Source of the DNA: a virus | Virus record (IMG/VR): IMGVR_UViG_3300032753_000117 | Location: 1 to 31,906 of that record | Strand: one strand, 5' to 3' | Length of the DNA: 31,906 nt | Part shown: in pieces, positions 1 to 31,572 of the stretch | Numbering within the stretch: the first letter of the stretch is position 1 | Layout of the letters: every line of letters begins with the position of its first letter | The notes under the pieces: generated by a model | Seen by the model: the letters and a program-made list of their open reading frames with translations, nothing else | Database searches by the model: none | Told to the model about the DNA's origin: nothing | Made by a program: the position numbers and the translations under genes

Positions 1-29
1 AAAAAAAGCTCCCGTCTAAGGAGCTTTTC
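1..29. terminator. Bidirectional Rho-independent terminator
   Basis: AAAAGCTCC (4-12) pairs with GGAGCTTTT (20-28) around a 7-nt loop. The A and T tracts on the two sides make it usable in both directions. It lies just past the stop of the minus-strand gene at 49-261. The same 9-bp stem recurs at 2822-2843. The window edge cuts off the context to the left. Confidence 0.75.
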
Positions 30-48
30 TCTATATTTGCCTACGTTA

Positions 49-261
49 TTAAAAGTGTGTCTGCGTAGTTTTAGCACCTTTTACATAGTGCCCCACCAGT
101 GCTGGCTTACCATCAGACCCCAATGCTTGAGTATTCTTAACTACTGCTGTATCTTGTACAGTAGCCGCAAATGCTTCTGCCGCTGTTTGTGTAGCAAAAT
201 CATGTGTAATCTTCTCTAAGCTACCATAAACTGTACGTAGTGTTGTTACTTGGAATGTCAT
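49..261 (-). CDS. Small hypothetical protein (70 aa)
   Basis: I do not recognise this 70-residue protein. It begins MTFQVTTLRTVYGSLEK and has an Ala/Thr-rich middle, with no Cys, no membrane segment and no signal peptide. The start is well supported: a GGAG Shine-Dalgarno (complement of 271-274) lies about 9 nt upstream, and a late-promoter-like box GCTAAATA sits at 296-303. The gene ends shortly before a strong terminator, so it looks like a complete single-gene late transcription unit. It could be a minor virion or accessory protein, but nothing in the sequence decides this. Confidence 0.7.
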   Translation of the reverse strand: MTFQVTTLRTVYGSLEKITHDFATQTAAEAFAATVQDTAVVKNTQALGSDGKPALVGHYVKGAKTTQTHF

Positions 262-295
262 AGTCGTCGCTCCTTAAATGCTTGTTCCTATACAT

Positions 296-303
296 TATTT
301 AGC
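296..303 (-). promoter_or_regulatory. T4-late-type promoter box, GCTAAATA
   Basis: The box matches the T4 late -10 element TATAAATA except at its first two bases. It lies 34 nt upstream of the ATG at 261, leaving room for a leader that carries the GGAG ribosome site. Confidence 0.5.
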
Positions 304-313
304 TACATACTAT

Positions 314-520
314 ATGGAAACACACATGATTCTCCCCCGCATACTGGCCGCTATAATGAGCTTGCTAGACTCTGCTAACCTGCGTAATCGTGTGTATCAG
401 CAACAAGAACGTATTGCCTCATTAGAACTAGCCATAGAAGACATTGAACGTATAAATGCTCGTAGTGCTAGTCCAAATCCATTAATTCAGGGCATAGTAG
501 AAAATACCAGAAAACCCTAA
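314..520 (+). CDS. Small hypothetical protein with hydrophobic N-terminus and coiled coil (about 68 aa)
   Basis: Unrecognised. Possible starts are at 278, 314 and 326. I take 314 (METHMILPR...) because the stretch between 278 and 314 overlaps the opposing promoter region and has no ribosome site; 326 is equally possible. From residue 5 there is a short hydrophobic run (ILPRILAAIMSLL), then a heptad-like charged helix (RVYQQQERIASLELAIEDIERIN), then a polar tail. It could be a small membrane-associated or oligomerising protein. The hydrophobic run is too short and interrupted to call a holin. It lies divergent to 49-261 and convergent with 555-1331. Confidence 0.5.
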   Translation: METHMILPRILAAIMSLLDSANLRNRVYQQQERIASLELAIEDIERINARSASPNPLIQGIVENTRKP

Positions 521-554
521 GTACTTCACCAATTTTTTTCGCGCTGTATTTTTT

Positions 555-1331
555 TTAGTTGCTAGAACCCATTTCGGGCTGATCAAACTTTGCTCTTAAC
601 TTTGCACCCAAACTGTCGGGATCTTCAGCTGGCGCTCGATGCGGTGGCTTATATTCGCCTAAGTCGATAATTTTTTGATTTGGCTTTGGAGTATGTGTAC
701 TAAACATGCCCATAGGATGGAATCCTTTATATTCTGGTCTCGTACGTAAGACCATCTGTTCAGCTTCCCAACCTTTGCCACCAGCAACTTTAAATAGAGG
801 CAAGGTTGTGTCTTCCATACTGCCTACATACCAAATGTCTTTGAACTTTTCATGCTGTGGTTTTTGTGAGGCTTGTCTATGCTCAGGTGCCGGCCCTTTT
901 TCAATAGCAAATGCGTAAGAACCCGTTCTAACATTTTCATACTTAGGGTCAGACATCATTTCTTCGTAAGGAACTACATGCCATCCTAGTTGTTTACTTA
1001 CACGTTTAGCCAGTGCATCGTACATTCTTGCACGACTTTTTTCTTTAGCAGTAAATGTTATAGCATGTACGCCCTTCCATTTTGTCACATATTCTTTTAT
1101 TGCTTGTATAACAGTGGCGAAAACTGCGTTTGCGTCACCGCGGCCAGTTACTTGAAATTCATGGTCAACACTAAACTCAATATATGCGAGTCCCTCTGTT
1201 TCCATGAATAGAACGTGTATTGTCTTTTCGCCTAGCTTTGCTCGAGCGTGGTTATCGTTTTCCCATTCTATAGGTTGGACATGCTTAGGGTCAAATAGTT
1301 CAGATAGGGGTTGTATTTCACTGAAGCGCAT
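555..1331 (-). CDS. Conserved-looking phage protein of unknown function (258 aa)
   Basis: I cannot assign a family. The first 140 residues look like a folded alpha/beta domain: alternating strands (KTIHVLFMETEGLAYIEFSV), a helix (NAVFATVIQAIKEYVTKW), a strand (AITFTAKEK), then a basic helix (RARMYDALAKRVSKQLGW). This order recalls acetyltransferase-like or other small alpha/beta enzymes, but I see no decisive motif. The C-terminal 100 residues are Pro- and charge-rich and probably extended, with YRTRPEYKGFHPMG-like segments suggesting a second small domain. The start is fixed by an ACTAAATA late box only 4 nt upstream, and no Shine-Dalgarno is present. Confidence 0.75.
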   Translation of the reverse strand: MRFSEIQPLSELFDPKHVQPIEWENDNHARAKLGEKTIHVLFMETEGLAYIEFSVDHEFQVTGRGDANAVFATVIQAIKEYVTKWKGVHAITFTAKEKSRARMYDALAKRVSKQLGWHVVPYEEMMSDPKYENVRTGSYAFAIEKGPAPEHRQASQKPQHEKFKDIWYVGSMEDTTLPLFKVAGGKGWEAEQMVLRTRPEYKGFHPMGMFSTHTPKPNQKIIDLGEYKPPHRAPAEDPDSLGAKLRAKFDQPEMGSSN

Positions 1332-1335
1332 TAAG

Positions 1336-1343
1336 TATTTAGT
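1336..1343 (-). promoter_or_regulatory. T4-late-type promoter box, ACTAAATA
   Basis: The TAAATA core ends 4 nt before the ATG at 1331. Transcription from it would start at or beside the start codon, giving a leaderless mRNA. It diverges from the plus-strand box at 1453-1460, with the nested palindrome between them. Confidence 0.5.
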
Positions 1344-1351
1344 AGTTTTAG

Positions 1352-1452
1352 GCTAGCGTAACGCTTGTTCGCGTTTTTACGCTACGCTTCGCGTTACAAA
1401 AATTTTTCCGCTTTGCTTCGCCTTGAAAATTTTAGCGGTCCGCTTCGCTAGC
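1352..1452. repeat. Nested palindromes with three GCTTCGC repeats
   Basis: This 101-nt element fills most of the gap between two divergent genes. The outer arms GCTAGCG (1352-1358) and CGCTAGC (1446-1452) are exact inverted repeats. Inside, GTAACGC (1358-1364) pairs with GCGTTAC (1391-1397), and GCGT (1371-1374) can pair with ACGC within that arm. A second block is bounded by two AAAATTTT-type self-complementary runs (about 1399-1406 and 1426-1433). The heptamer GCTTCGC occurs at 1386, 1415 and 1442, spaced 29 and 27 nt. The element is much richer in GC and CpG than its surroundings. It has no open reading frame of note and no clear T-tract terminator. Confidence 0.75.
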
Positions 1453-1460
1453 TATAAGTA
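1453..1460 (+). promoter_or_regulatory. T4-late-type promoter box, TATAAGTA
   Basis: Seven of eight bases match TATAAATA. It starts immediately after the outer arm of the palindrome and ends 5 nt before the ATG at 1466. There is no Shine-Dalgarno between box and start. Confidence 0.5.
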
Positions 1461-1465
1461 TATGC

Positions 1466-2092
1466 ATGAACTATATCCACAACATATTCCCCATACCCGT
1501 GTACCTTAATCAAGTCAAAGACCCTGTGGCTTTGGACCAGGAAATTACTAATAAATTAACTAACATACGTTGGATTGCGGGCGCTGGGCTAGATGACCCA
1601 CATCGCATTACTACTGCTAGCTACTATGATGACATCATTATGGATGCTAGTTTATCGGTGTTTCAAGCTGAATTAGACATTCATTTACAGGCCTATGCTA
1701 ACAGTTTGTTGTTTCCCTTGACTGAATACAGTCGTGCTAGTTGGCTAGCTGAATATGACTTGAATGAATACAGTACTGTGCATGATCATGGTACTGCGGA
1801 TATCAGTGGGGTTTACTACTACAAGACTTGCAGTAAGGGTGGGGAGTTTTTCTTTGAACGCCCAGGTACAGCGCATACAGCACATGCTTATGCTGACATC
1901 GGGGATCGTTATACTATACGTCCACAACCAGGTTTATTAATTATGTTTCCCGGGTGGATGCGACATGGTGTTACCCGTAACTTGTCGGGTGAGTGCCGCC
2001 GTATATTGTCGTTTAATCTTTGGTTTGACCGTACTAGTGCTATACGTAAAGAAATAGCCGACGCTAAGAGCCGTTACTCAACTCCAAGTTAA
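1466..2092 (+). CDS. 2OG-Fe(II) oxygenase family protein (208 aa)
   Basis: Predicted cupin-fold dioxygenase using 2-oxoglutarate and ferrous iron. Candidate metal ligands are H106 or H108 in STVHDHGTADISGVYYY and distal H167 in GWMRHGV. R178/R179, just before LSFNLWF, fits the 2-oxoglutarate-binding arginine. The order 'HxH...SGVYYY...PG.L..FP..M.H.V...R.s..fN' is that of the phage/bacterial TIGR02466-like family, and the length is typical. The substrate is unknown; members in T4-like phages are common and mostly uncharacterised. The start is supported by the TATAAGTA box 5 nt upstream. The 3' end overlaps the convergent gene at 2078-2338 by 15 nt. Two other members of the superfamily lie at 19604-20802. 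Confidence 0.85.
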   Translation: MNYIHNIFPIPVYLNQVKDPVALDQEITNKLTNIRWIAGAGLDDPHRITTASYYDDIIMDASLSVFQAELDIHLQAYANSLLFPLTEYSRASWLAEYDLNEYSTVHDHGTADISGVYYYKTCSKGGEFFFERPGTAHTAHAYADIGDRYTIRPQPGLLIMFPGWMRHGVTRNLSGECRRILSFNLWFDRTSAIRKEIADAKSRYSTPS

Positions 2093-2338
2093 TAAAAATA
2101 GGGTTTTATTGCGTTCTCTGCGGAATGCCACACAGGCTTGCCAATAGTTCAAGCTAGTGCCGTTATGATAGGCCCATTCAACATGATGACTGCCTACGTA
2201 GCGGTTTAACCACATTTCTAGTGTGTCCACACTTCGCACCCAATCCGTTTGAAGATCGTGTTCAACTACAGGCCAGGGTGCATGTGCTATAAATTCAAAG
2301 TCATGCCACTCTGGAAGATAGAAATCCTTGCGAGCCAT
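2078..2338 (-). CDS. Small hypothetical protein, Trp/His-rich (86 aa)
   Basis: Unrecognised. The 86 residues are rich in Trp and His (for example PEWHDFEFIAHAPWP, GSHHVEWAYHNG, NYWQACVAF) and end in a hydrophobic LFLLTWS. No known metal-binding spacing stands out. The start is supported by the AGTAAATA box 6 nt upstream, with no Shine-Dalgarno. The gene converges on and slightly overlaps the oxygenase gene. It is a single-gene unit in the accessory segment. Confidence 0.65.
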   Translation of the reverse strand: MARKDFYLPEWHDFEFIAHAPWPVVEHDLQTDWVRSVDTLEMWLNRYVGSHHVEWAYHNGTSLNYWQACVAFRRERNKTLFLLTWS

Positions 2339-2344
2339 ATATAA

Positions 2345-2352
2345 TATTTACT
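2345..2352 (-). promoter_or_regulatory. T4-late-type promoter box, AGTAAATA
   Basis: It ends 6 nt before the ATG at 2338. It forms a divergent pair with the box at 2363-2370, only 10 nt apart. Confidence 0.5.
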
Positions 2353-2362
2353 TGTTTGTAAG

Positions 2363-2370
2363 AATAAATA
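2363..2370 (+). promoter_or_regulatory. T4-late-type promoter box, AATAAATA
   Basis: One mismatch to TATAAATA. The first in-frame ATG (2372) is only 1 nt from the box and so would not be transcribed. This supports the second ATG at 2393 as the real start. Confidence 0.5.
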
Positions 2371-2392
2371 CATGATACAGTGGAATTTCAAT

Positions 2393-2818
2393 ATGAAAAG
2401 TTTGGCCCAGCAAATACGTGAATTAAGCAACTTAATAGAAGCAGTAGCTCAAGCTCCTGCGCCAGTGGCACCAGCTCCTACAGCTCCTGCGCCAGTGGCA
2501 CCCGAAGCTAATGCTCCTGAAGAAAAACGTTATGAACTAGATCCTGCTAGAATTGGTGCTAAAATTGATTTCAGTACGCTAACTAGACTAGGGCTTGCAC
2601 AAGGTGAAATTGTTAGAATGGATTGGATACAACCTGGCTTAATAGGCAAAGTTGTACGTATAGAGCCTGCTGGTGTTACTGTTATACTAAAGACAAAAAA
2701 CGGGCCTCCTATCATGCTTGGCCCAGATGCTATCGAGTGGCTAGACAGTATGCAATCTAAAAATGATAAGCCTGCTCCTGCCGCTACACCACAGACTCCG
2801 CCCGCACCGAAGGCCTAA
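2393..2818 (+). CDS. Hypothetical protein with Ala/Pro-rich linker (141 aa)
   Basis: Unrecognised. The order is a short N-terminal helix (MKSLAQQIRELSNLIEAVAQ), a low-complexity Ala/Pro linker (about residues 21-45, from near-repeats of the APAPVAP-coding DNA), a compact beta-rich domain (about 46-118), and a second Pro/Ala tail. The middle domain contains GLIGKVVRIEPAGVTVILKTKNGPP followed by IMLGPDAIEWL, an SH3-like barrel pattern reminiscent of KOW/Hfq-like folds; that fold is an inference. I place the start at 2393 rather than 2372 because the late box ends at 2370. A terminator follows 3 nt after the stop. Confidence 0.7.
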   Translation: MKSLAQQIRELSNLIEAVAQAPAPVAPAPTAPAPVAPEANAPEEKRYELDPARIGAKIDFSTLTRLGLAQGEIVRMDWIQPGLIGKVVRIEPAGVTVILKTKNGPPIMLGPDAIEWLDSMQSKNDKPAPAATPQTPPAPKA

Positions 2819-2820
2819 TA

Positions 2821-2844
2821 AAAAAGCTCCTTTCGGAGCTTTTT
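2821..2844. terminator. Bidirectional Rho-independent terminator
   Basis: AAAAGCTCC (2822-2830) pairs with GGAGCTTTT (2835-2843) around a 4-nt loop (TTTC on plus, GAAA on minus). It serves both convergent genes ending at 2818 and 2851. The stem is the same as that of the terminator at 4-28. Confidence 0.9.
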
Positions 2845-2850
2845 GTTTGA

Positions 2851-5800
2851 TTACGCTTGAGCTTCACCCCAACGTAGAACCAAGTTAGTGTTAATCGGAC
2901 TACCCTGTGTAATATACACGTTAATGAACATAGTATCACAACCGTTAGGATATGTACCACGTCCACCAATTGGAGTGTTGGTAAGTTCTTTCAAGTTACT
3001 TAAATCCAATGCGTCCTTGTTAGCTGGTGAGTTAATGTATGAGAAAACAGTTTCACCAGGTAGTGCGTATGTGCTACGACTACACTGAACAGTAGTACCA
3101 GTACCACCATATAATGTAACCGCGGCCAGTGTTGGTGTGTTAGTTACCAAGCCGTTGTAAATTGAAGTAGTGGCTGTTGTTGAGTTTTGGCTAGTGTTCA
3201 AGTAATAAGTACCTGCACCGCCTGTACCAGTACCGTTAGCAATAATATAAGTGTTAGCTACTACAGTACCACCAGCTAGTAAACTACCAACAGTAATAAC
3301 ACCGCTTGGCGTTCCTGTTACTGTCATAACAACTGCGGTACCTGTAACAGTCACGTTACCAATAGTTTGTGTAACTGAAATACCCCATGTACCAACACCT
3401 GAACCAGTACCAGTAATGTTGTTGGTAATATAAGTACCTGAACCTAAACTAGTACCAGTTAACAACATACCTACGGTAATTGTTCCAGATCCAACTGCTG
3501 TTACAGTCATAATGTTACCAGCAAAGTTAGCAGTAAAACTAGCAGTAGTTGTGTTACTAATAGTACCCGAAATACCAGCACTAGTGCTTACAAGTGCGGA
3601 TACTTTAGTTAAACCATACAATGAACCAGTGCTTGTTGGGAAAAACACGTCATCGCCTACTGCTACACCTGTAGTTGATGGGTTACCAATTAGCGGAATA
3701 GCTGTAACGTTAGCGTTAACGAAAATTGGACATGTTAGATAGTTGTTTGTAGCATTGGTAAAGATAATACTTGAGCCTGCCGCAATTTGACTAAAACTAG
3801 GCTGGCCAGTTGGGTTAACTACTGAGTTCAAACTATTAAAGCTAATGTTGTTTAAGCTAGGGAAGTTGCTTGGATTAATAACAGCTTCAACCACAATGGC
3901 CGCGTTAGTACCACCAGCGCCTGATGATGATTCTAGCTGTTGTAGCAAGAAACTCGCACGGTTGATAAGTTCACGTGCTCCTAAATCGCCTGGCAATGCG
4001 TTACTTACGCTAGGTGCTAAACGAATAGCAAACGCTGTTGTCTTCTTAGTACTAATTGTAATGTTAGTAGCTTGATAGTTGAAAATGTATGAACGGTCAC
4101 TGTCAAATCCACCGTCTTCAATAAACGCCGCACCCCAGTGACTTACGATTGGACTTGCGCTACCGTTAACTAGAATAACACCAGTTGTTGGAATATGAGT
4201 GGCCGCTGATCCAGCTGTAAATACACGATAGCCACCTGATGCCCAAGGACTAACTGTTGCGGCACGACTACAGCCAATTAATGCATTAACAGTCATAGGA
4301 GTAGCTACTGGAACTGTAGCATTAATTTGTGTCATCACAGTTACACCTACGTTGGCTAAACTAGTAGCTAATGTGATTGTTGTACTGTTTACAATAGTAT
4401 TGACATAATAAGTTGTGTTTAATACAATGTTTCCTAAACTCAATACAGCCGCATTCATGAATACAATTGGTTGTCCAACAGCCATGTTAGTTGTTGATGC
4501 TACTGTAACAGTATTGCCTGTTGCACTAGTAGCTGTAGCGATTGTGTTAATTTTACCGGTATAAGTAATTAATTCGTTATCAATATAAACTGTACAAACT
4601 GTTAGAGTTGGTGTTGGGAATAAAGATGCATCATTGATTGGAATAACTGTATCTGTACTAGTTACATTAACAGAGCCTACAATATAACTGCGAGCGCCTT
4701 CATTAGTAACTTCATAACGTACAGGCATGTTACCTGCTCGCATCCAAGCTTCGTTGTTTAAGTTGTTATTACGTAAACGATGTACTGTTACATATTTGCC
4801 TTCTGGACCGCGCATCATCCAGTCAATAAATCCAGCACCATACCATGTCCATTGCATGGCCACCATCTGCATTTTTGTAGGAATGATTTGATAACCGCTT
4901 GGGTTGTATGGTCCGTTTGATCCGTCCATACGATCCATATTCCACTTGCTTTGTGGAATCACATAATCGATAGTTTTAGTAAACTTAACACCGCTTGCGT
5001 TTGCATATCCGCGCCATTGTGGGTTAACATAGCATAACGTATCACTAACTACTTGAGTAATCATATGTGTCATTCCACGAATAACAACGCGATCTCCTAC
5101 AAATATCTGTGTAGTAAAACGAGTGTTAGCACCAATAACTTGTCCAGAACCGACAACTAAACTAATTGTACCTGCTAGCTGGAATGTACTAGAACGACGA
5201 GTTACAGCTACAGTCTGTCCATCATACTGGAAGAATACACCGTTTTGTTCGTCAAATGTTCCTGAACGAACAGTAGCACCATACCAATTGTTGATACTTA
5301 ATAGAGTTGGATCTTGAACAGTAGCTCCTGTAATACCACTTGATGTTCCTAGTGTTTGTACTGCAAAAACTTGTAGTGTGCGTTCGTCAACAATGTTTAC
5401 AACGGTAAATGTTCCGTTATATCCAGAAGTAGCAATACCGCTTAATGTTACTGTAGCACCAGGTTGTACACCATGGTCGACGTCGTCAGTTACAATAGTA
5501 ATTACTGGTTGTAGTACTGCACTGGCTGTTAATGCACCGCTAGCACTAATTGTAGTAATTGCAACACCTGCAATAGCATTTGCGTACGAGTTAGCTAAGG
5601 TAATGCTTGTGCCAGTGCCACCGATTGCAACATAATATGTACCAGCTGTTAGACCTACTGCACCGTTTAGAGTAACGTTAGAAATTACAACAGCTTGACC
5701 TTGAACGTATGTTCCACTAGTAATTGTAACCGATCCGCTAGTAGTTGCGGCTGTAATAGATAACCCAGACGCATATACTGTTCCTGTAGCTGTTACACTA

Positions 5801-8253
5801 CGAACAAAGTAATTAGGAGCCATTAACAAACCAGTGTTAAAGTTAATACCTTTACCTGATTGATAACGAATATATTTCTTGCTCATACGAATTGCCTGAG
5901 CACTATAAGCTGGGCCACCAGTTCCTAACTGAACACCGCCGTCAAATGGTCTATGAGAATAGTTACTGTCGGGACGAGCATAGATGCTTGCAGATATAGT
6001 TCCACTAATTACACCAGCCGCACGAGATGTATATGTAAATGTTGTAGAGCTTGTAACTGATTCAACAAAGAATGGTCCGTTAGCAAGTGTGTTATTGTTA
6101 GAACCATTTTCAGATGTTACAATCACGTTAATAGTTTCACCTGGAGTAAATCCGTGTGGGCTATATGTGTTTATAGTAATAATTGGGTTCGCGTTTACTG
6201 CGGTAAATGAACTAGATGTTCCAATGTTACCAGTGCTAGTACTTACAGTATATGTTCCTAGTCCATAAGCGGCATAGAATGCATAGTTACCCGACCCTTG
6301 AGAACTAAATGGGTTTGTTAGTGTAACGACACTACCTGCAATGCTTTTTACAAATGTTGATACAGGAACACCAGTTCCAGTAACAATTTGACCAACAGCG
6401 ATGTTTAATGGACTATTAACAGTTAATGTGTAAGTACCTGCCGCACCCCCAGCTGACAATGTTGGGCTAACTACAGGTGTTGCTCCTGTTGGAGTTAACT
6501 GAATAAGAATGTTAGTTGAACTTGGTACAGTAGCAGTACCAGAAGCAATACCTTGTCCAGGAGCAAGTATTCCAGAAGTTAATGTACTAACAGTTAGTGT
6601 ACTGCCTGACAATGTGCCAGCAAAGTTTGCAACTGTTGATGGAGTAGTGTAAGTAAATGTTGGAGGGCAAACTGCAATGCCTGCAATATAACCATTTGCG
6701 TTTGTTAGAACTAGGTTTGAACCAACGATAACTGTCATAGGACTTGAAACATACGCGGCTGTTGTTTGTGTCATCAAACTCATACCGTTTAGACTGCTTG
6801 GACTTGTTGTACTTAACTGTGCATACCCGCCGTCTAATACACTATAGATATAATAAGTACCCGCCGCTAAGTTACCAATAGTAACACCGCTAATAACGAT
6901 CGGCTCTCCTACTAACATGTTAGTAGTTCCACCAACTGTTACACCATTTAATGTATAACTTGAAAATCTAACACCGTTAGTTAAAGCGTTTGTACTAACA
7001 ATAGTTGTTGAATACTGTTGATATTGACTAATTGTAATATTAGTTCCACTGATACCAGTAATATAATACTGTTGTCCAGACACAATGTTACCGAAACTTG
7101 CTCCGCCTACAACATACATATTTCCGCCAATTGTGGTCGATGTTGGAGTAAAGTTTGCACCACCACTTACAAGACTTAAAGTAACTGTTCTTGTATCAAC
7201 AATGCTAGTTACGTAATATGTTGTACCAGTTGTTAGTCCACCAAAACCTGTTCCAGAGAAATATAATGGCATACCAACAATCATACCAACTGTTGTACCT
7301 AGTGTAATATAACCAGTCGATGCGTTAGTGGCGATTGCATTAGTTGTTACTGTGGTAAATGTAATTGGACTGCCTTGAACCATGCCAGTTGTAGAATTCA
7401 ACGTGATTTGATAACTGACGCCGTTTGTAGCAGTTGCAGTTGCGTTAATAACTGCGTTAATGTTAGAACCTAAATAGAACCCGCCTTGACGAAGTTGAAT
7501 AACACTAGTCCAAATATTATCGTTGTTATTATATCCTACTTTACCTTTGGCAATGTAAGTAAATGTTGTTGTGCTTGGAACACTATAAACAACAAACGAC
7601 CCTTCTGCTCGGTCAAACCCTGTAAATGCACTATTAAAACCTTTGATAGTAATCGGCTGACCTACGTTATAACCGTGAGCTACAGAAGTTGTGATTGTAA
7701 TTTGACTTTCAGATGTTGTTAATCCACCCGAACCACTCGATGCATCTGTTGTTGCGGCTGTTACTTGCAAATCTGTTCCTGGAATTTCATAAATGCCGGG
7801 GTAGCCACGTTCCATGTCAACAGTTAACCATTTTGTTGGTTGCATACCATATTCAAAGTCAGCGTCTAGTAAACTTTGTGGGTTCGCAACACGCTGACGT
7901 TCAAACGCATCTGTACCTACTTCTGGACTACGAACATATTGGAATGGTTGTTCAAAGAAGATTTGTAAAACATCTGTACCAGACATGGTACTAGTGTTTG
8001 CGGCTAGTGTAATAATAGTAGTTCCATCAGTGTTGTCTAATGCACTGATAAATGCATTATCGTTAACACCGCGGTTAAATGTGACAGTTGTACCTGCAAA
8101 AGTTGGGTCGGCAAAGTTATAAATGATTACATTTTTTGTTGTATTTGTAATTACTAAAAACTGTTGTAAATCATATTTGCCTGGTATTTCGATTGTACCT
8201 GCACCCGCATTGCCTGGTGTAAAAACATACTGTCTAATCTGACTCTTTGCCAT
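2851..8253 (-). CDS. Giant virion protein, adhesin-like with repeat region (1800 aa)
   Basis: Probable tail-fibre or virion-surface protein. The N-terminus (about 1-150; MAKSQIRQYVFTPGNAG, later NPQSLLDADFEYGMQPTKW) and C-terminus (about 1730-1800; ALPGETVFSYI, LKELTNTPIGGRGTYPNG, ending LVLRWGEAQA) match the ends of large structural proteins of aquatic T4-like phages. So does a central block near 1100-1190 (WNMDRMDGSNGPYNP, then WTWYGAGFIDWMMRGPEG). Between these lie long Thr/Ser/Gly/Val-rich repeats of about 50-100 residues, with 'HGxxxGxxxxVxGxxxxxxNGTFxVxxVxxxxTFxY' units resembling E1_FCCH-type repeats. There is no Cys-rich domain or enzyme motif. The start is well supported by GGAG and a late box 17 nt upstream. 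The family assignment is from memory of these landmarks. Confidence 0.85.
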   Translation of the reverse strand: MAKSQIRQYVFTPGNAGAGTIEIPGKYDLQQFLVITNTTKNVIIYNFADPTFAGTTVTFNRGVNDNAFISALDNTDGTTIITLAANTSTMSGTDVLQIFFEQPFQYVRSPEVGTDAFERQRVANPQSLLDADFEYGMQPTKWLTVDMERGYPGIYEIPGTDLQVTAATTDASSGSGGLTTSESQITITTSVAHGYNVGQPITIKGFNSAFTGFDRAEGSFVVYSVPSTTTFTYIAKGKVGYNNNDNIWTSVIQLRQGGFYLGSNINAVINATATATNGVSYQITLNSTTGMVQGSPITFTTVTTNAIATNASTGYITLGTTVGMIVGMPLYFSGTGFGGLTTGTTYYVTSIVDTRTVTLSLVSGGANFTPTSTTIGGNMYVVGGASFGNIVSGQQYYITGISGTNITISQYQQYSTTIVSTNALTNGVRFSSYTLNGVTVGGTTNMLVGEPIVISGVTIGNLAAGTYYIYSVLDGGYAQLSTTSPSSLNGMSLMTQTTAAYVSSPMTVIVGSNLVLTNANGYIAGIAVCPPTFTYTTPSTVANFAGTLSGSTLTVSTLTSGILAPGQGIASGTATVPSSTNILIQLTPTGATPVVSPTLSAGGAAGTYTLTVNSPLNIAVGQIVTGTGVPVSTFVKSIAGSVVTLTNPFSSQGSGNYAFYAAYGLGTYTVSTSTGNIGTSSSFTAVNANPIITINTYSPHGFTPGETINVIVTSENGSNNNTLANGPFFVESVTSSTTFTYTSRAAGVISGTISASIYARPDSNYSHRPFDGGVQLGTGGPAYSAQAIRMSKKYIRYQSGKGINFNTGLLMAPNYFVRSVTATGTVYASGLSITAATTSGSVTITSGTYVQGQAVVISNVTLNGAVGLTAGTYYVAIGGTGTSITLANSYANAIAGVAITTISASGALTASAVLQPVITIVTDDVDHGVQPGATVTLSGIATSGYNGTFTVVNIVDERTLQVFAVQTLGTSSGITGATVQDPTLLSINNWYGATVRSGTFDEQNGVFFQYDGQTVAVTRRSSTFQLAGTISLVVGSGQVIGANTRFTTQIFVGDRVVIRGMTHMITQVVSDTLCYVNPQWRGYANASGVKFTKTIDYVIPQSKWNMDRMDGSNGPYNPSGYQIIPTKMQMVAMQWTWYGAGFIDWMMRGPEGKYVTVHRLRNNNLNNEAWMRAGNMPVRYEVTNEGARSYIVGSVNVTSTDTVIPINDASLFPTPTLTVCTVYIDNELITYTGKINTIATATSATGNTVTVASTTNMAVGQPIVFMNAAVLSLGNIVLNTTYYVNTIVNSTTITLATSLANVGVTVMTQINATVPVATPMTVNALIGCSRAATVSPWASGGYRVFTAGSAATHIPTTGVILVNGSASPIVSHWGAAFIEDGGFDSDRSYIFNYQATNITISTKKTTAFAIRLAPSVSNALPGDLGARELINRASFLLQQLESSSGAGGTNAAIVVEAVINPSNFPSLNNISFNSLNSVVNPTGQPSFSQIAAGSSIIFTNATNNYLTCPIFVNANVTAIPLIGNPSTTGVAVGDDVFFPTSTGSLYGLTKVSALVSTSAGISGTISNTTTASFTANFAGNIMTVTAVGSGTITVGMLLTGTSLGSGTYITNNITGTGSGVGTWGISVTQTIGNVTVTGTAVVMTVTGTPSGVITVGSLLAGGTVVANTYIIANGTGTGGAGTYYLNTSQNSTTATTSIYNGLVTNTPTLAAVTLYGGTGTTVQCSRSTYALPGETVFSYINSPANKDALDLSNLKELTNTPIGGRGTYPNGCDTMFINVYITQGSPINTNLVLRWGEAQA

Positions 8254-12062: not shown

Positions 12063-13481
12063 TCAAATATCCTCACCTGGAAGATTATTAAGTAGTTCTC
12101 TCAATTTACTACTTTCAACCTGAGCTTTAACTTTAGGAACTGCTAGTCCTTCTGTTGGATTTTCTGGTGCTACTGTTTGACGATTTTTAATATTGTTCAA
12201 CAATGCACTACCCGCACTTTGACTGTTATGATTTCCATAACTATCTTCTTCAGCTAGGTCACTAATTCTCAAACTGTCAATGTTAAACTCTAAATCAATT
12301 TTTTGACCAACGCCGCTACTCGAACGTGTCTTCATCAACTGAATTTGATAGCGTCCACGCTCACGCATAGCACGACTCGTAAAAATACCAAACACGTTAT
12401 CCGCTGTCTGAATCTTACTAAGTCCGCCTGAAATATGACTGTGGTCAAACTCAACTTCTTCAACAGCACCACGGTTCAACTGTGCCGCAGTTACGAATAC
12501 ACAGTTCTTTTCCATAGCTAAATTACGCAATTCTTCTGACACGTATTTGTCTTTGACAAACAAGTTTTCTGCACTAATTTTCTTACCCATGGGCATTAAC
12601 AAGTCCAAGTAGTCAACTAAAAGTACATCGACTTTACGTCCTAGTTTGATTTCATATTCTTTCAAGTATGCACGAATATCGTTTGTAGTTTTACCACTTG
12701 GCATATACTTAATCTGGTATGTACCAGATTTCTTACCAATCATCTTAACCTTCATTTCTACATCGTCTAAGTTCTTAAACACATCCTTTGTAGCCATGCC
12801 TGTTACCATAGCATCCATACGCATAGCAACAAGTTCTTCTGAAAGTTCTAGAGTTAAGTAAACTACATTCATGCCCTTTTCTGCAAAATTGATACCTAAA
12901 TTTGCTAAAAATAACGACTTACCTGCGCCTGATCCTCCTGCAAAGATATTCAACTCTCCGCGATTAAAACCACCGAACAGTTTATCATCAACAGCTTTCC
13001 ATCCTGTCGATACTTGACCATTTTTATCTTTAATTTTCAATAAACGTGCTCTAGGATCTAACCAGTAATCTGTACCTAAATCTCGCTGTAAACCTATTTG
13101 AACAGCCAGTTTGATCTTTTCTTCAACGCTACCGTACTCGCCCTTTTCTAGCAAGTCAGCACTTTCTAAGATTGCTTTTTCTAAACCTTTATGACGGATG
13201 AATGTTTCAAAATCATTAAGCAACCAATCAAAGTGTTCGTCACGTAAATCATGCGGTACTTTAAAACTAACCCCGGTTGCGGCATTAATAATTTCTTCTG
13301 TGGGCACTACAGAATGTTCTTCAATATATTGATGCATAAATTCAGCCGCTGGTTGTAATTTGCGGTCGAACAATGTGTGATCAAAAATGCCCTGACATCT
13401 ACTGAATGTGGCGGCATCTGCCAACATCATTTCTAGATATACTTTTTGTATATCATAACCATAATCTGTATTTTGTTTCAT
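12063..13481 (-). CDS. gp41: Replicative DNA helicase, DnaB/T4 gp41 family (472 aa)
   Basis: Hexameric 5'-3' helicase that unwinds the fork and partners the gp61-type primase. The N-terminal helical domain (about 1-140) matches the DnaB-N region. The RecA-like core has Walker A GGSGAGKS (182-189), a catalytic-Glu motif after YLTLELSEE (about 208-216), Walker B VDVLLVDYLDLL (D290), and a sensor/H4 segment FVTAAQLNRG. An arginine-rich segment follows (TSRAMRERGRYQIQLMKTR). The length equals that of T4 gp41 (475 aa). The C-terminal 60 residues are less conserved and acidic, the likely partner-contact tail. A perfect TATAAT lies 5 nt before the ATG and no Shine-Dalgarno is visible. The carbamoyltransferase gene ends 16 nt upstream. 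Confidence 0.95.
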   Translation of the reverse strand: MKQNTDYGYDIQKVYLEMMLADAATFSRCQGIFDHTLFDRKLQPAAEFMHQYIEEHSVVPTEEIINAATGVSFKVPHDLRDEHFDWLLNDFETFIRHKGLEKAILESADLLEKGEYGSVEEKIKLAVQIGLQRDLGTDYWLDPRARLLKIKDKNGQVSTGWKAVDDKLFGGFNRGELNIFAGGSGAGKSLFLANLGINFAEKGMNVVYLTLELSEELVAMRMDAMVTGMATKDVFKNLDDVEMKVKMIGKKSGTYQIKYMPSGKTTNDIRAYLKEYEIKLGRKVDVLLVDYLDLLMPMGKKISAENLFVKDKYVSEELRNLAMEKNCVFVTAAQLNRGAVEEVEFDHSHISGGLSKIQTADNVFGIFTSRAMRERGRYQIQLMKTRSSSGVGQKIDLEFNIDSLRISDLAEEDSYGNHNSQSAGSALLNNIKNRQTVAPENPTEGLAVPKVKAQVESSKLRELLNNLPGEDI

Positions 13482-13496: not shown

Positions 13497-14966
13497 TTAA
13501 TTAAACACTTTAACACCGTAATGGCGTTCAAAGTTTTTTGCATCTGTCGAGTCATTTACCATAGGTTGTCCTTTAATATTTAAACTGGTGTTAAGCAACA
13601 TCGGACATCCAGTTCTTGCATACCATAGCTCTAAGAGTTTTCTGAAAGGGCTTCCATCTTTTGGAACAGTTTGTACACGTGAACTTCCATCGCGATGCAC
13701 GACAGCAGGATAAAGCTCAGGATTCCGTAAATGAGCGACGACTTGCATATACCTACTATTATGCCAGCCGCGAGGCATAGTAAAGTACTCATCAACACAC
13801 TCCTCGAGTATTGCTGGAGCAAAGGGTCTAAATTCTTGTCGTTGTTTGATTGCATTTACCTTATCCTTTATATCTATATCGCGGGGATCCGCTAATAAAC
13901 TTCTATTACCTAACGCTCTTGGACCAAATTCTGCACGTCCTCGAGCAACACCGCATATTTTATTAATTTCTAAATAATCGACAATTTGTTCATTAGTTGC
14001 ACGATAACCCATGTTATAACCTAAGAACGGATCAAACTCGTCAGGTGACATTCGCCATTCTGGATGTTTGGCTAGTACAGCGCCTACCGCACTTCCAGCA
14101 TCACCTGGATTTGGCATTATCCAGGTATTATCAAAATAGTTTCCTGTTAGTCTATTAGCAAGGCAATTTAACGCACAACCACCCATTAAGACTAAATTTT
14201 TACTATTGACTAGCCTTGTTGCTTTTATCAATAAATGCTCGAAGTATTCTTCGTATATGTCTTGAGTGGTGGCCGCAATCTCAAAACTATCTTTAACGGT
14301 TAAGTCAGGACGCCAATCCATTACACCTCTATGACAACTACGTAAAAATTTTAAGTTGCCATAATTGTCTATAAAATCGTGACTCATGTCAAAATTTAAC
14401 TTGCTAGGATCACCATATGCGGCCATGCCCATTAAGATATATTCATCTTCCTTAGGCTTTAATCCTACACGTTGAGTCATGGCACTATAGAATAATCCGA
14501 TACTATGTGGGTAACGTAAACTCCATCTCTTTTTAAGTTTGTTACCTTTTGCTTCCCATATTGTAGCAGTATCCCACTCGCCGATAGCGTCTATAACTAC
14601 TACACATGCTTCATCGAATCCGCTGGTAAAATATCCACCAGCCGCATGACTAAGATGATGGTCGACATAAGTTATAGGTGCATTGATCTCGTAACGAGCC
14701 ATGTAAATTTCAATATCATTGTCTCGACCTTTCCAACCTTGACCAGCATAAAATTGTCTTAAAGTCTTAAGAAATGGGCGTTCATACCAATAAACTTGGT
14801 CAGGAGCTCCGTATTGTTTTGCGGCCATAACCAAATCACGACATAAATCTTTATCGTTTTTTATACCGCTAAATCGTTCGCTGTGACTAGCAAACACTAA
14901 TTTTTCATCACAGAATACCGCTATTGCGGCATCGTGACTATTTGCAGAAATTCCCCAACTAATCAT
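13497..14966 (-). CDS. NodU/TobZ-family carbamoyltransferase (489 aa)
   Basis: Predicted O-carbamoyltransferase that forms carbamoyl-adenylate from carbamoyl phosphate and ATP and moves the carbamoyl group to a hydroxyl. The Kae1-like domain is intact: GISANSHDAAIAV (H11, D12), DHHLSHAAGGYF (H103, H104, H107, metal/adenylate site), VVIDAIGEWD (D126), GGCALNCLANR (262-272) and PNPGDAGSAVGA (285-296). The YrdC-like C-terminal domain is also present: GRAEFGPRALGNRSLLADPR (343-362) then FRPFAPAILEE. All hallmark motifs are kept, so it is likely active. The acceptor is unknown. The first 8 nt overlap the primase gene's end. Its position between primase and helicase suggests expression with replication genes and fits, but does not prove, a nucleotide or DNA modification role. 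Confidence 0.9.
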   Translation of the reverse strand: MISWGISANSHDAAIAVFCDEKLVFASHSERFSGIKNDKDLCRDLVMAAKQYGAPDQVYWYERPFLKTLRQFYAGQGWKGRDNDIEIYMARYEINAPITYVDHHLSHAAGGYFTSGFDEACVVVIDAIGEWDTATIWEAKGNKLKKRWSLRYPHSIGLFYSAMTQRVGLKPKEDEYILMGMAAYGDPSKLNFDMSHDFIDNYGNLKFLRSCHRGVMDWRPDLTVKDSFEIAATTQDIYEEYFEHLLIKATRLVNSKNLVLMGGCALNCLANRLTGNYFDNTWIMPNPGDAGSAVGAVLAKHPEWRMSPDEFDPFLGYNMGYRATNEQIVDYLEINKICGVARGRAEFGPRALGNRSLLADPRDIDIKDKVNAIKQRQEFRPFAPAILEECVDEYFTMPRGWHNSRYMQVVAHLRNPELYPAVVHRDGSSRVQTVPKDGSPFRKLLELWYARTGCPMLLNTSLNIKGQPMVNDSTDAKNFERHYGVKVFN

Positions 14967-29964: not shown

Positions 29965-29972
29965 TATTTATC
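29965..29972 (-). promoter_or_regulatory. T4-late-type promoter box, GATAAATA
   Basis: One mismatch to TATAAATA. It overlaps the TGA stop of the terminase gene and ends 4 nt before the ATG at 29960. No Shine-Dalgarno is present, so a leaderless transcript is implied. Confidence 0.55.
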
Positions 29973-31572
29973 ACATTCCAGTAGATATAAAAATAGGCAG
30001 AGGTAGTTCAAAGTTTTCGTCTTCAGCCCAGTCACTATGTACTTTTAGCCTATCGAATACTGTTGGATCCCATTCTGCTAGTAGCAAGCTCATGCGTACA
30101 ACTAGTAGCAAAGCCGCTACTAAATCGTCATGTTGCCCTTCTTTTGCCGCAAAAGTTGTACCTTTTGCAATAAATGTCTTGAGTTCGCTGATTAAACTCT
30201 TGCTATTTAATACACATTTATCTTCTTCAATAAGATACTTAACTTTAGCACAAGTACTAATTTTGTTGCCGAATGTAGTATTAAATCCTTTGCGGAATTT
30301 CTTAACGTGCCCTTTACGCATGGGTTCACTTAAGAATAATCCTGGGAAGGTTTCTTCTCCTAAATTGTCTATAACAACTAGGGCACTTTCACCCACGGTA
30401 TTGTTTTCCACGCTCCAATAGATACTATTATAATTTTCTTCGCCTATCTCTTCTGACACATATTTTAATATATCTCTTAATATTTTAACCTGTTGTTGAA
30501 TAGGAGTAATGTTATGTTGCCACTCTGCAATTTGTATCATTTCAGGCATTTCAAATACTTCAATTGCGCCGTAATCTCCGCCTGTTCCTAAACTTGGATC
30601 TAGTGCTACTAGATAAACTTTTCCAACTTCTGGTTTTTTATACCAACGAACTTGCCCCATCTTAAATTGTGGTTCTCTACCTAACATGTCGATAAGTTTC
30701 AACGAACTAATCAACGTTTCATCAAATACCAAGAACTCGCAACCATATTCACGACGGAAACGTTCTTCGCCAATACGTCCCATTTCAGTTTGTTTCCACT
30801 GCTCATCACGATCTGGGTGTTCGTACCATTCGGCACGGAATCCATGGAACCCATTACGTCCTAAACCGTCATCTTTAGTATTGCCGTGCTCATCAAATTT
30901 ATCTTGTGACTCTTTCCAAATCGTAGCAAACTCATCTTCGTCACTGTTCGGTGTTGATGTAATAATTGCACGACCACCAGTTGCTAGTGTTGGTGAAATT
31001 GAGGTCCAGAATTCTGTAGCAATGTTAGGTTGCACGAATGCAAACTCGTCACAGTATAGTAATGATATAGACATACCACGACCCGTTGTGCCTGTAGTTG
31101 TTTGACTTACAATACGTGATCCGTTATCAAATTCTATACTACCCTTGTTATAACTAACAACACCGCATCGAATATAATCTTCGCAAAGTTCGTATCCATA
31201 ACGAATACGTTGCATAATTTCTTGTGCGCCTGTAAACTTGTGCGCGGCAACTAGAATTGTTTGATCTGGGTGAAACATTGCATACCACAGCAAGTAGGAA
31301 CTTGCACAAGTAGTCTTACCACTTTGACGCGGTAACATATTAATGTTAAATCGATAATCGTGATACGCACTTAATAGTCTTTCCTGATATTCATAAGGTT
31401 CAAATTTAACTTTACCTTTAACAGGATGCTGAATGTGGAAAAAGTTTTTAGCAAAATGCAAATACCCTTTGTCAGGGTCAGCACATGCCATGAGGCTAGC
31501 TACTTGCTCCTCAGTGAACTTTTCTGTTTTATGCGCTTTTTTGGTTAAGACGCCGTCTAGTGATTTTGCCAT
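29971..31572 (-). CDS. gp17: Terminase large subunit gp17 (533 aa)
   Basis: ATP-driven motor and nuclease that packages DNA into the prohead. ATPase domain: adenine-binding YEYQERLL (60-67), Walker A LPRQSGKTT (80-88), Walker B SLLYCDEFAF (170-179, catalytic E176), and coupling motif IITSTPN (203-209). RNase H-like nuclease: VALDPSLGTGGDYGA (D325, D333), YWSVENNTVGE (E389), and QHDDLVAALLLVVRM with the third acidic position near the C-terminus. The length is somewhat below T4 gp17 (610 aa). The ATG at 31572 is preceded by a late box 5 nt away and by no Shine-Dalgarno. The product ends ELPLPIFISTGM. Confidence 0.96.
   Translation of the reverse strand: MAKSLDGVLTKKAHKTEKFTEEQVASLMACADPDKGYLHFAKNFFHIQHPVKGKVKFEPYEYQERLLSAYHDYRFNINMLPRQSGKTTCASSYLLWYAMFHPDQTILVAAHKFTGAQEIMQRIRYGYELCEDYIRCGVVSYNKGSIEFDNGSRIVSQTTTGTTGRGMSISLLYCDEFAFVQPNIATEFWTSISPTLATGGRAIITSTPNSDEDEFATIWKESQDKFDEHGNTKDDGLGRNGFHGFRAEWYEHPDRDEQWKQTEMGRIGEERFRREYGCEFLVFDETLISSLKLIDMLGREPQFKMGQVRWYKKPEVGKVYLVALDPSLGTGGDYGAIEVFEMPEMIQIAEWQHNITPIQQQVKILRDILKYVSEEIGEENYNSIYWSVENNTVGESALVVIDNLGEETFPGLFLSEPMRKGHVKKFRKGFNTTFGNKISTCAKVKYLIEEDKCVLNSKSLISELKTFIAKGTTFAAKEGQHDDLVAALLLVVRMSLLLAEWDPTVFDRLKVHSDWAEDENFELPLPIFISTGM

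Follow-up and report, generated by a model that had tools for sequence, protein, structure and literature searches.

The element at positions 1352–1452 of the window (the whole stretch of DNA analysed here, a 31.9-kb IMG/VR virus record with T4-superfamily genes) is tentatively proposed to be a cis-acting DNA site with a fixed position in this phage group, addressed by its structure and serving replication or recombination, a reading to which we give somewhat less than an even chance. Its core is an array of short mini-hairpins, and the family to which it belongs was recovered from some 20 related contigs of uncultivated T4-superfamily phages. The place and direction of the site are kept while the surrounding genes exchange, a pattern suggestive of a landmark on the DNA that the phages use when they replicate or recombine. 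Conservation, place, strand polarity and stem covariation were all observed in these relatives, and the site would presumably act at the level of DNA. A more specific formulation is somewhat unlikely: that of a replication or recombination start site addressed by DNA shape, in which an array of GNA-triloop mini-hairpins between A/T blocks, at one genomic place in a large T4-superfamily group, would follow the hairpin rule of the phage N4 promoters, be read by a candidate hairpin-binding protein, and represent a previously undescribed class.

The element sits between two divergent genes, 555–1331 (minus strand) and 1466–2092 (plus strand), with late-promoter-like motifs on both sides, as the original prediction had stated; the consensus used for calling these motifs is that of T4. 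The outer and inner inverted repeats, the two AAAATTTT blocks, and the three GCTTCGC heptamers of that prediction are likewise all in place. In the following list, plus denotes the sense of the ATPase strand in relatives. The whole element was delimited from the sequence together with its homologues in relatives, the A/T blocks from the sequence, and mini-hairpin 1 from the sequence and family-wide covariation.

555–1331, minus: left neighbour gene, 258 aa, weak DUF6934 similarity; variable and outside the site proper
1336–1342, minus: CTAAATA, late-promoter-like motif for the left gene
1352–1452, plus: whole element
1352–1358 and 1446–1452: outer arms, GCTAGCG and CGCTAGC
1358–1364 and 1391–1397: inner arms, GTAACGC and GCGTTAC
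1360–1375, plus: left module, AACGC-N6-GCGTT, conserved in sequence without covariation in about half of the copies
1384–1394, plus: mini-hairpin 1, ACGC-TTC-GCGT, 4-bp stem, with a GAA triloop on the minus strand
1398–1407, no strand: A/T block 1, AAAAATTTTT, containing AAAATTTT at 1399–1406
1415–1421, plus: mini-hairpin 2, heptamer GCTTCGC, with only 2 stem pairs here and 3 in several relatives
1426–1433, no strand: A/T block 2, AAAATTTT
1442–1448, plus: mini-hairpin 3, heptamer GCTTCGC, with 2 stem pairs only in the window copy
1454–1460, plus: ATAAGTA, late-promoter-like motif for the right gene
1466–2092, plus: right neighbour gene, a 208-aa 2OG-Fe(II) oxygenase; variable
12063–13481, minus: DnaB-like replicative helicase (phrog_19, E 3e-66), the right-hand anchor of the interval
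13497–14966: carbamoyltransferase
29971–31572: T4-type terminase, from the gene search of the window

The GCTTCGC copies at 1386, 1415, and 1442 are the only three in the window with both strands counted, and the full 4-bp stem is present in one of the three hairpins of this copy. Three GCTTCGC heptamers on one strand within 60 nt occurred in none of 1000 first-order Markov windows and two in 2 of 1000; the absence of any Markov window with three indicates that the clustering is not due to chance. The claim that both GC and CpG content stand out held for CpG, with 13 in the element's 101 nt, the window's highest, and at most 11 in any other 101-nt stretch away from the element's neighbourhood. 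It did not hold for GC, the value of 47.5% being unexceptional and reached by 4.9% of the window's 101-nt stretches. Folding of the DNA and RNA, which had been put forward as a check, gave no signal for the whole element, the energies being unremarkable against shuffles (z of −1.0 for RNA plus, −0.9 for DNA plus, and −1.4 for RNA minus). Neither a sigma-70-like promoter nor a terminator-like site was called within 1332–1465, and a scan for intrinsic terminators (a GC-rich stem of at least 5 pairs followed by a T run) made no call in the element and three calls elsewhere in positions 1–4000, in agreement with the earlier view that this is not a normal terminator. Rfam at gathering threshold returned no matches in the window. 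Between the convergent genes 2372–2818 and 2851–8253 lies an ordinary, bidirectional-looking terminator hairpin of 10 pairs (2821–2844), which contrasts with the palindromic element of the same window.

Other uncultivated phage contigs are the closest relatives of the window; from at least 600 candidates, 80 loci were retained, with terminase identity reaching 100%. Among cultured phages, the most similar helicases are those of Pseudomonas phages in the PA5oct group (about 51% identity). A 14-base pattern scan yielded 49 stretches, among them two clear homologues of the whole element (L029 and L032, 82% identical) and a third (L039) recognised later by profile. Whole-record search of 50 terminase relatives of the 80 loci recovered the element in 7, and the remaining terminase loci were mostly covered by the later profile search, with one of them (L217) searched as its fetched stretch only. 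The sequence-only profile was built from 7 copies; contigs behind some of them recur in the ATPase-anchored set described below (L315, L316), so that these loci are not independent of the profile. At E 0.1 or better it matched 10 of 33, 12 of 43, and 9 of 20 further records, the weakest matches being doubtful. One contig with a 100% identical terminase (G007) gave no element match; the 40 kb read of its 61.6 kb hold neither anchor gene, which makes it uninformative on the site. A core pattern with 20 specified bases had no matches in the prokaryote genome collection, and blastn with three copies gave one chance-level match in all in the phage collection; the plasmid collection gave none. Against viral contigs, a tighter two-block DNA pattern gave no matches and is too strict, missing the window copy too, while a looser pattern returned mostly unrelated sites among the matches listed.

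The conserved core consists of two to four mini-hairpins that read NNGC-TTC-GCNN along the ATPase strand and NNGC-GAA-GCNN along the helicase-sense strand. Successive loops are mostly about 24–33 nt apart and are interleaved with AAAATTTT blocks, of which 56 distinct ones lie inside anchored regions and 18 outside. The outer palindrome was considered as the conserved unit and rejected, as its arms are not kept in relatives; the same-site comparison proposed earlier thus singled out the short TTC-loop hairpins as the conserved part instead of the palindrome. Base-by-base conservation had been offered as the mark of a fixed rather than mobile element, and the outcome was divided: the site is fixed in place, and what is conserved is its architecture and not its individual bases.

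Covariation was assessed in 93 anchored regions (455,754 nt, with 549,933 nt outside), a set that excluded loci lacking an anchor or carrying the helicase on the same strand (L376, L377, L382). The polarity is pronounced: on the ATPase strand, GCTTCGC occurs at 81 distinct sites inside the anchored regions versus 6 for GCGAAGC, and at 15 versus 35 outside. Stem pair 3 is complementary in 62 of the 81 GCTTCGC sites (shuffle mean 33.9, maximum 48 of 5000 shuffles) and pair 4 in 44 (mean 22.9, maximum 36 of 5000), with pair 5 at chance (20 of 81, shuffle mean 20.9) and position 3 complementary in 2 of 15 sites outside the anchored regions. After clustering to 44 groups, pairs 3 and 4 were still complementary in 28 and 28 (means 15.2 and 13.7, maxima 26 and 26); under the strictest clustering, to 25 groups, the signal was weaker, at 11 for pair 3 (mean 6.8, reached by 210 of 5000 shuffles) and 12 for pair 4 (mean 6.4, reached by 55 of 5000). 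Among heptamers with GNN triloops, covariation was detected in GCTTCGC only; GCTCCGC is commoner inside than outside (26 vs 6) without significant covariation, and GCTGCGC and GCTACGC showed none. In 33 distinct ATPase–helicase intervals, 31 TTC-loop hairpins were counted inside (160,668 nt) and 2 outside (277,898 nt); the runner-up triloop reached 8 inside.

The stems themselves vary, including CGC-TTC-GCG, CTAC-TTC-GTAG, TCGC-TTC-GCGA, GTGC-TTC-GCAC, CCGC-TTC-GCGG, and others. The heptamer is therefore not invariant, the first hairpin of G048 being CTAC-TTC-GTAG, and several copies combine C-TTC-G with other inner pairs. The left module, AACGC-N6-8-GCGTT, is found in 10 of 25 listed copies, with 13 distinct occurrences inside anchored regions and 3 outside, and could be an ordinary protein-binding site.

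The interval that holds the element is bounded by an AAA-ATPase gene (phrog_1250, a homologue of T4 NrdC.10) on one side and the replicative helicase gene on the other, both pointing into it, so that the element lies downstream of the ATPase gene and faces the DnaB-like helicase gene; in the window contig, the ATPase anchor is beyond the left end. An ATPase-anchored search, meant as an unbiased test of placement, returned 80 loci, all of which were scored. A convergent helicase was also present in 28 of them, and in 12 of these 28 the element was identified by profile (E below 1e-3), in the same orientation in 12 of 12; it lay downstream of the ATPase in 3 of the remaining 52 loci. At least one TTC mini-hairpin on the ATPase strand (stem of at least 3, GC-closed) was present in 27 of the 28 loci, versus a GAA hairpin in 3. 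Of 14 covered intervals without a profile match, 12 had TTC hairpins whose 4-bp stem includes two or more G/C, the other two (L317, L349) having one weaker hairpin each and no 4-bp TTC hairpin in the interval. In five contigs (G060, G117, G116, G100, G111), the helicase fell outside the fetched stretch; searching their whole records showed that it converges on the ATPase and that the array separates the two. The interval match in a further contig, G110, was weak (E 0.006).

The usual profile result was one match per contig, in the same interval. Two large contigs, of 185 kb (G048) and 154 kb (G009), were scanned end to end in pieces and carry one non-coding array each; heptamer clusters also occur near 128.8 kb and 55.9 kb, respectively, and appear from the sequence to lie inside a coding region. 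The second copy in G060 (L300) and weaker matches outside the interval in L336, L344, and L350 speak against a strict one-copy rule. Second, inverted, weaker copies beyond the ATPase gene, outside the interval, were located in four contigs: L300 1007–1073 (G060), L417 (G117:39740-39770), L413 (G110:5785-5839), and L415 (G112:14542-14605). In a cultured relative, Pseudomonas phage PAC2 (helicase 51% and ATPase 46% identical), the helicase and ATPase genes are far apart, and no TTC or GAA mini-hairpin was found in the two 25-kb stretches read. Short minus-strand ORF calls with similar residues (GANRWAV) were also noted downstream of the ATPase in L292 and L299 (about 0.2–0.6 kb in L291–L299), possibly marking a conserved non-coding stretch.

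Two published systems bear on how such an array might work. The oligonucleotide d(GCGAAGC) is reported to form an ultra-stable DNA mini-hairpin melting near 78 °C (PMC4686876), and the helicase-sense strand of the array carries this exact heptamer; the published hairpins, which have GNA loops, are test-tube oligonucleotides (PMC4686876, PMC10527192), in contrast to the conserved genomic array described here. For phage N4, C(GNA)G hairpins, in which a C:G pair closes a G..A loop, are reported to form by extrusion under physiological supercoiling and to be recognised by a polymerase, the outer stem bases being free as long as they are paired (PMC4496689). The array shows the same combination—GNA triloop, C:G closing pair, and paired outer stem, with pairs 3 and 4 covarying—and, judged from these sequences, the N4 hairpin rule of loop, closing pair, and free but paired outer stem holds in it too. 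In the proposed mechanism, negative supercoiling or strand parting would allow the helicase-sense strand to extrude GNA-triloop mini-hairpins beside the easily melted A/T blocks, and a putative phage or host protein that reads hairpin DNA would bind at the extruded hairpins. The most likely purpose would be to start or direct replication or recombination by opening the DNA for loading of the primosome or of recombination proteins. The earlier suggestions of a protein-binding array or of a recombination or replication structure fit this evidence, the function being predicted from sequence features.

The hairpins could in principle also form in transcripts, as an RNA-level device—a bidirectional terminator, an insulator, or an mRNA-end stabiliser between late units—and we regard this as unlikely. 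Hairpin covariation alone cannot separate RNA from DNA, and the 19 unpaired position-3 cases were too few for G-U wobble to distinguish between the two and gave no direction. Moreover, tandem and convergent arrays stand right after a stop codon (e.g., L060, L298), and in some distant relatives (L360, L374) the TTC hairpin is followed by a T-rich stretch. However, ORF calls give at least 8 copies with a divergent gene context, at least 9 with a tandem one, and 3 with a convergent one, and the occurrence of the site in all three contexts argues for DNA rather than RNA. Both neighbouring genes begin at the site and are directed away from it in at least 8 copies, leaving their late transcripts without the array; with the divergent copies outside the late transcripts that start beside them, a role solely in those transcripts is unlikely. 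Stems of 3–4 bp are also too short for an intrinsic terminator, and the scan that makes no call in the element does call the hairpin at 2821–2844. A two-way transcription insulator, one of the original suggestions, is accordingly disfavoured, the three gene contexts being alike in carrying the site and the window's ordinary terminator lying at 2821–2844.

Late-type promoter motifs adjoin the array only where a gene points away from it: they were present in 21 of 25 rows (which include the overlapping double calls L297 and L313, the near-duplicate L303, and the second copy L300), and the four rows without them correspond to the three convergent sites. The TAAATA/TAAGTA motifs end about 4–8 nt before the start codon, both in the window (1336–1342, 1454–1460) and in L299, L302, L311, and L313; at this spacing, the transcripts would be leaderless or nearly so. 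In L305 (5200–5275) and L307 (1527–1607), the array extends over the 3′ end of a gene for an acetyltransferase-like protein, whose last residues are thus encoded by hairpin DNA.

Comparison of the 1.2-kb flanks of 24 copies (276 pairs) showed that neither flank is shared in 263 pairs, exactly one in 11, and both in 2, the latter being the near-duplicates G057/G059 and G008/G117. In L314/L325 and L305/L325, the shared right flank starts 0–1 nt from the array edge. As far as can be told from these sequences, the genes on both sides are swapped up to the element's edges while the site stays, in a comparison that covers the array's own borders only, and the array may not stand out as a breakpoint. 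A recombination role would explain why heterologous genes abut both edges of the element.

The same flank data, both the predominance of pairs without a shared flank and the sharing that begins at the array edge, would also be expected of a recombination cassette like the promoter early stem-loops (PeSLs) of T4-type phages, whose sole role would be to provide a shared border sequence for gene swapping by homologous recombination. As an account of the whole element, this is quite unlikely. Homology requires neither strong strand polarity nor stem covariation, the copies are often too dissimilar in sequence for efficient homologous pairing, and G048 and G009 have one copy per genome and not one per gene module. 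PeSLs resemble the site as short, conserved non-coding motifs at the borders of shuffled genes (PMC4503421). In contrast to PeSLs, which combine an early host-type promoter with a terminator stem-loop and occur in many copies at such borders, the site is single per genome (in the two large contigs, one non-coding array each), has a fixed interval and orientation, and contains neither an early promoter nor an ordinary terminator; its flanking motifs are of the late type.

The resemblance to N4 extends to function if the hairpins are themselves promoters of the kind that the N4 virion RNA polymerase recognises, an explanation that is very unlikely. N4 promoters share with the array a small DNA hairpin with a GNA triloop, a C:G closing pair, a GC-rich heptamer, an outer stem that is free if paired, and strand specificity (PMC4496689). 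Unlike them, the array consists of two to four hairpins with A/T blocks, in the T4 superfamily, and the transcription implied would often be antisense: with the N4 geometry (hairpin on the template strand), it would run in the ATPase sense and thus against the right-hand gene in tandem-minus and convergent copies. A search with PF00940 matched none of 15 contigs, the control genomes being without a match as well. Of the known systems, PeSL cassettes and N4 promoters come closest, and the array resembles each in part, the full set of features being shown for neither.

REP/BIME-type and other dispersed palindromes consist of short GC-rich palindromic units, and CpG-rich palindromes that the element resembles occur in cyanobacterial and organelle genomes. 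The array is likewise made of short GC-rich palindromic units and differs in being undispersed, its matches falling as a rule once per contig rather than all over a genome. It is scarcely credible that the element is a mobile palindromic repeat or was acquired from a cyanobacterium or organelle, both ideas of the original prediction: the second inverted copy in four contigs would suit this reading, but relatives keep one interval and one orientation, the two large contigs have a single array each, and the prokaryote, Rfam, phage, and plasmid searches above lend transfer no support.

Returning to the fixed DNA site, its confirmation would mean that widespread uncultivated freshwater (lake) T4-superfamily phages mark one genomic site by folded DNA and not by linear sequence, would help to trace where replication starts or genes are exchanged in these phages, and by what means, and would give the ultra-stable GCGAAGC mini-hairpin an in vivo role outside N4. 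The covariation supplies a simple rule for locating the site in further phages, namely to look for NNGC-TTC-GCNN arrays on one strand. A search of the literature on PeSLs, late promoters, GCGAAGC, N4, palindromes, cruciforms, and GCTTCGC, with subscription papers mostly outside its coverage, found no description of the site. GC skew was considered as a marker of an origin or terminus and rejected: in 30 loci the cumulative-skew maximum follows gene blocks, up to 5 kb from the element, with no turn at the element itself. In other phage contigs, similar-looking AAAATTTT plus CGCTTCGCT repeats with a different hairpin rule were observed (L169 3784–3842, L173 6445–6494), and are probably unrelated to the element family.
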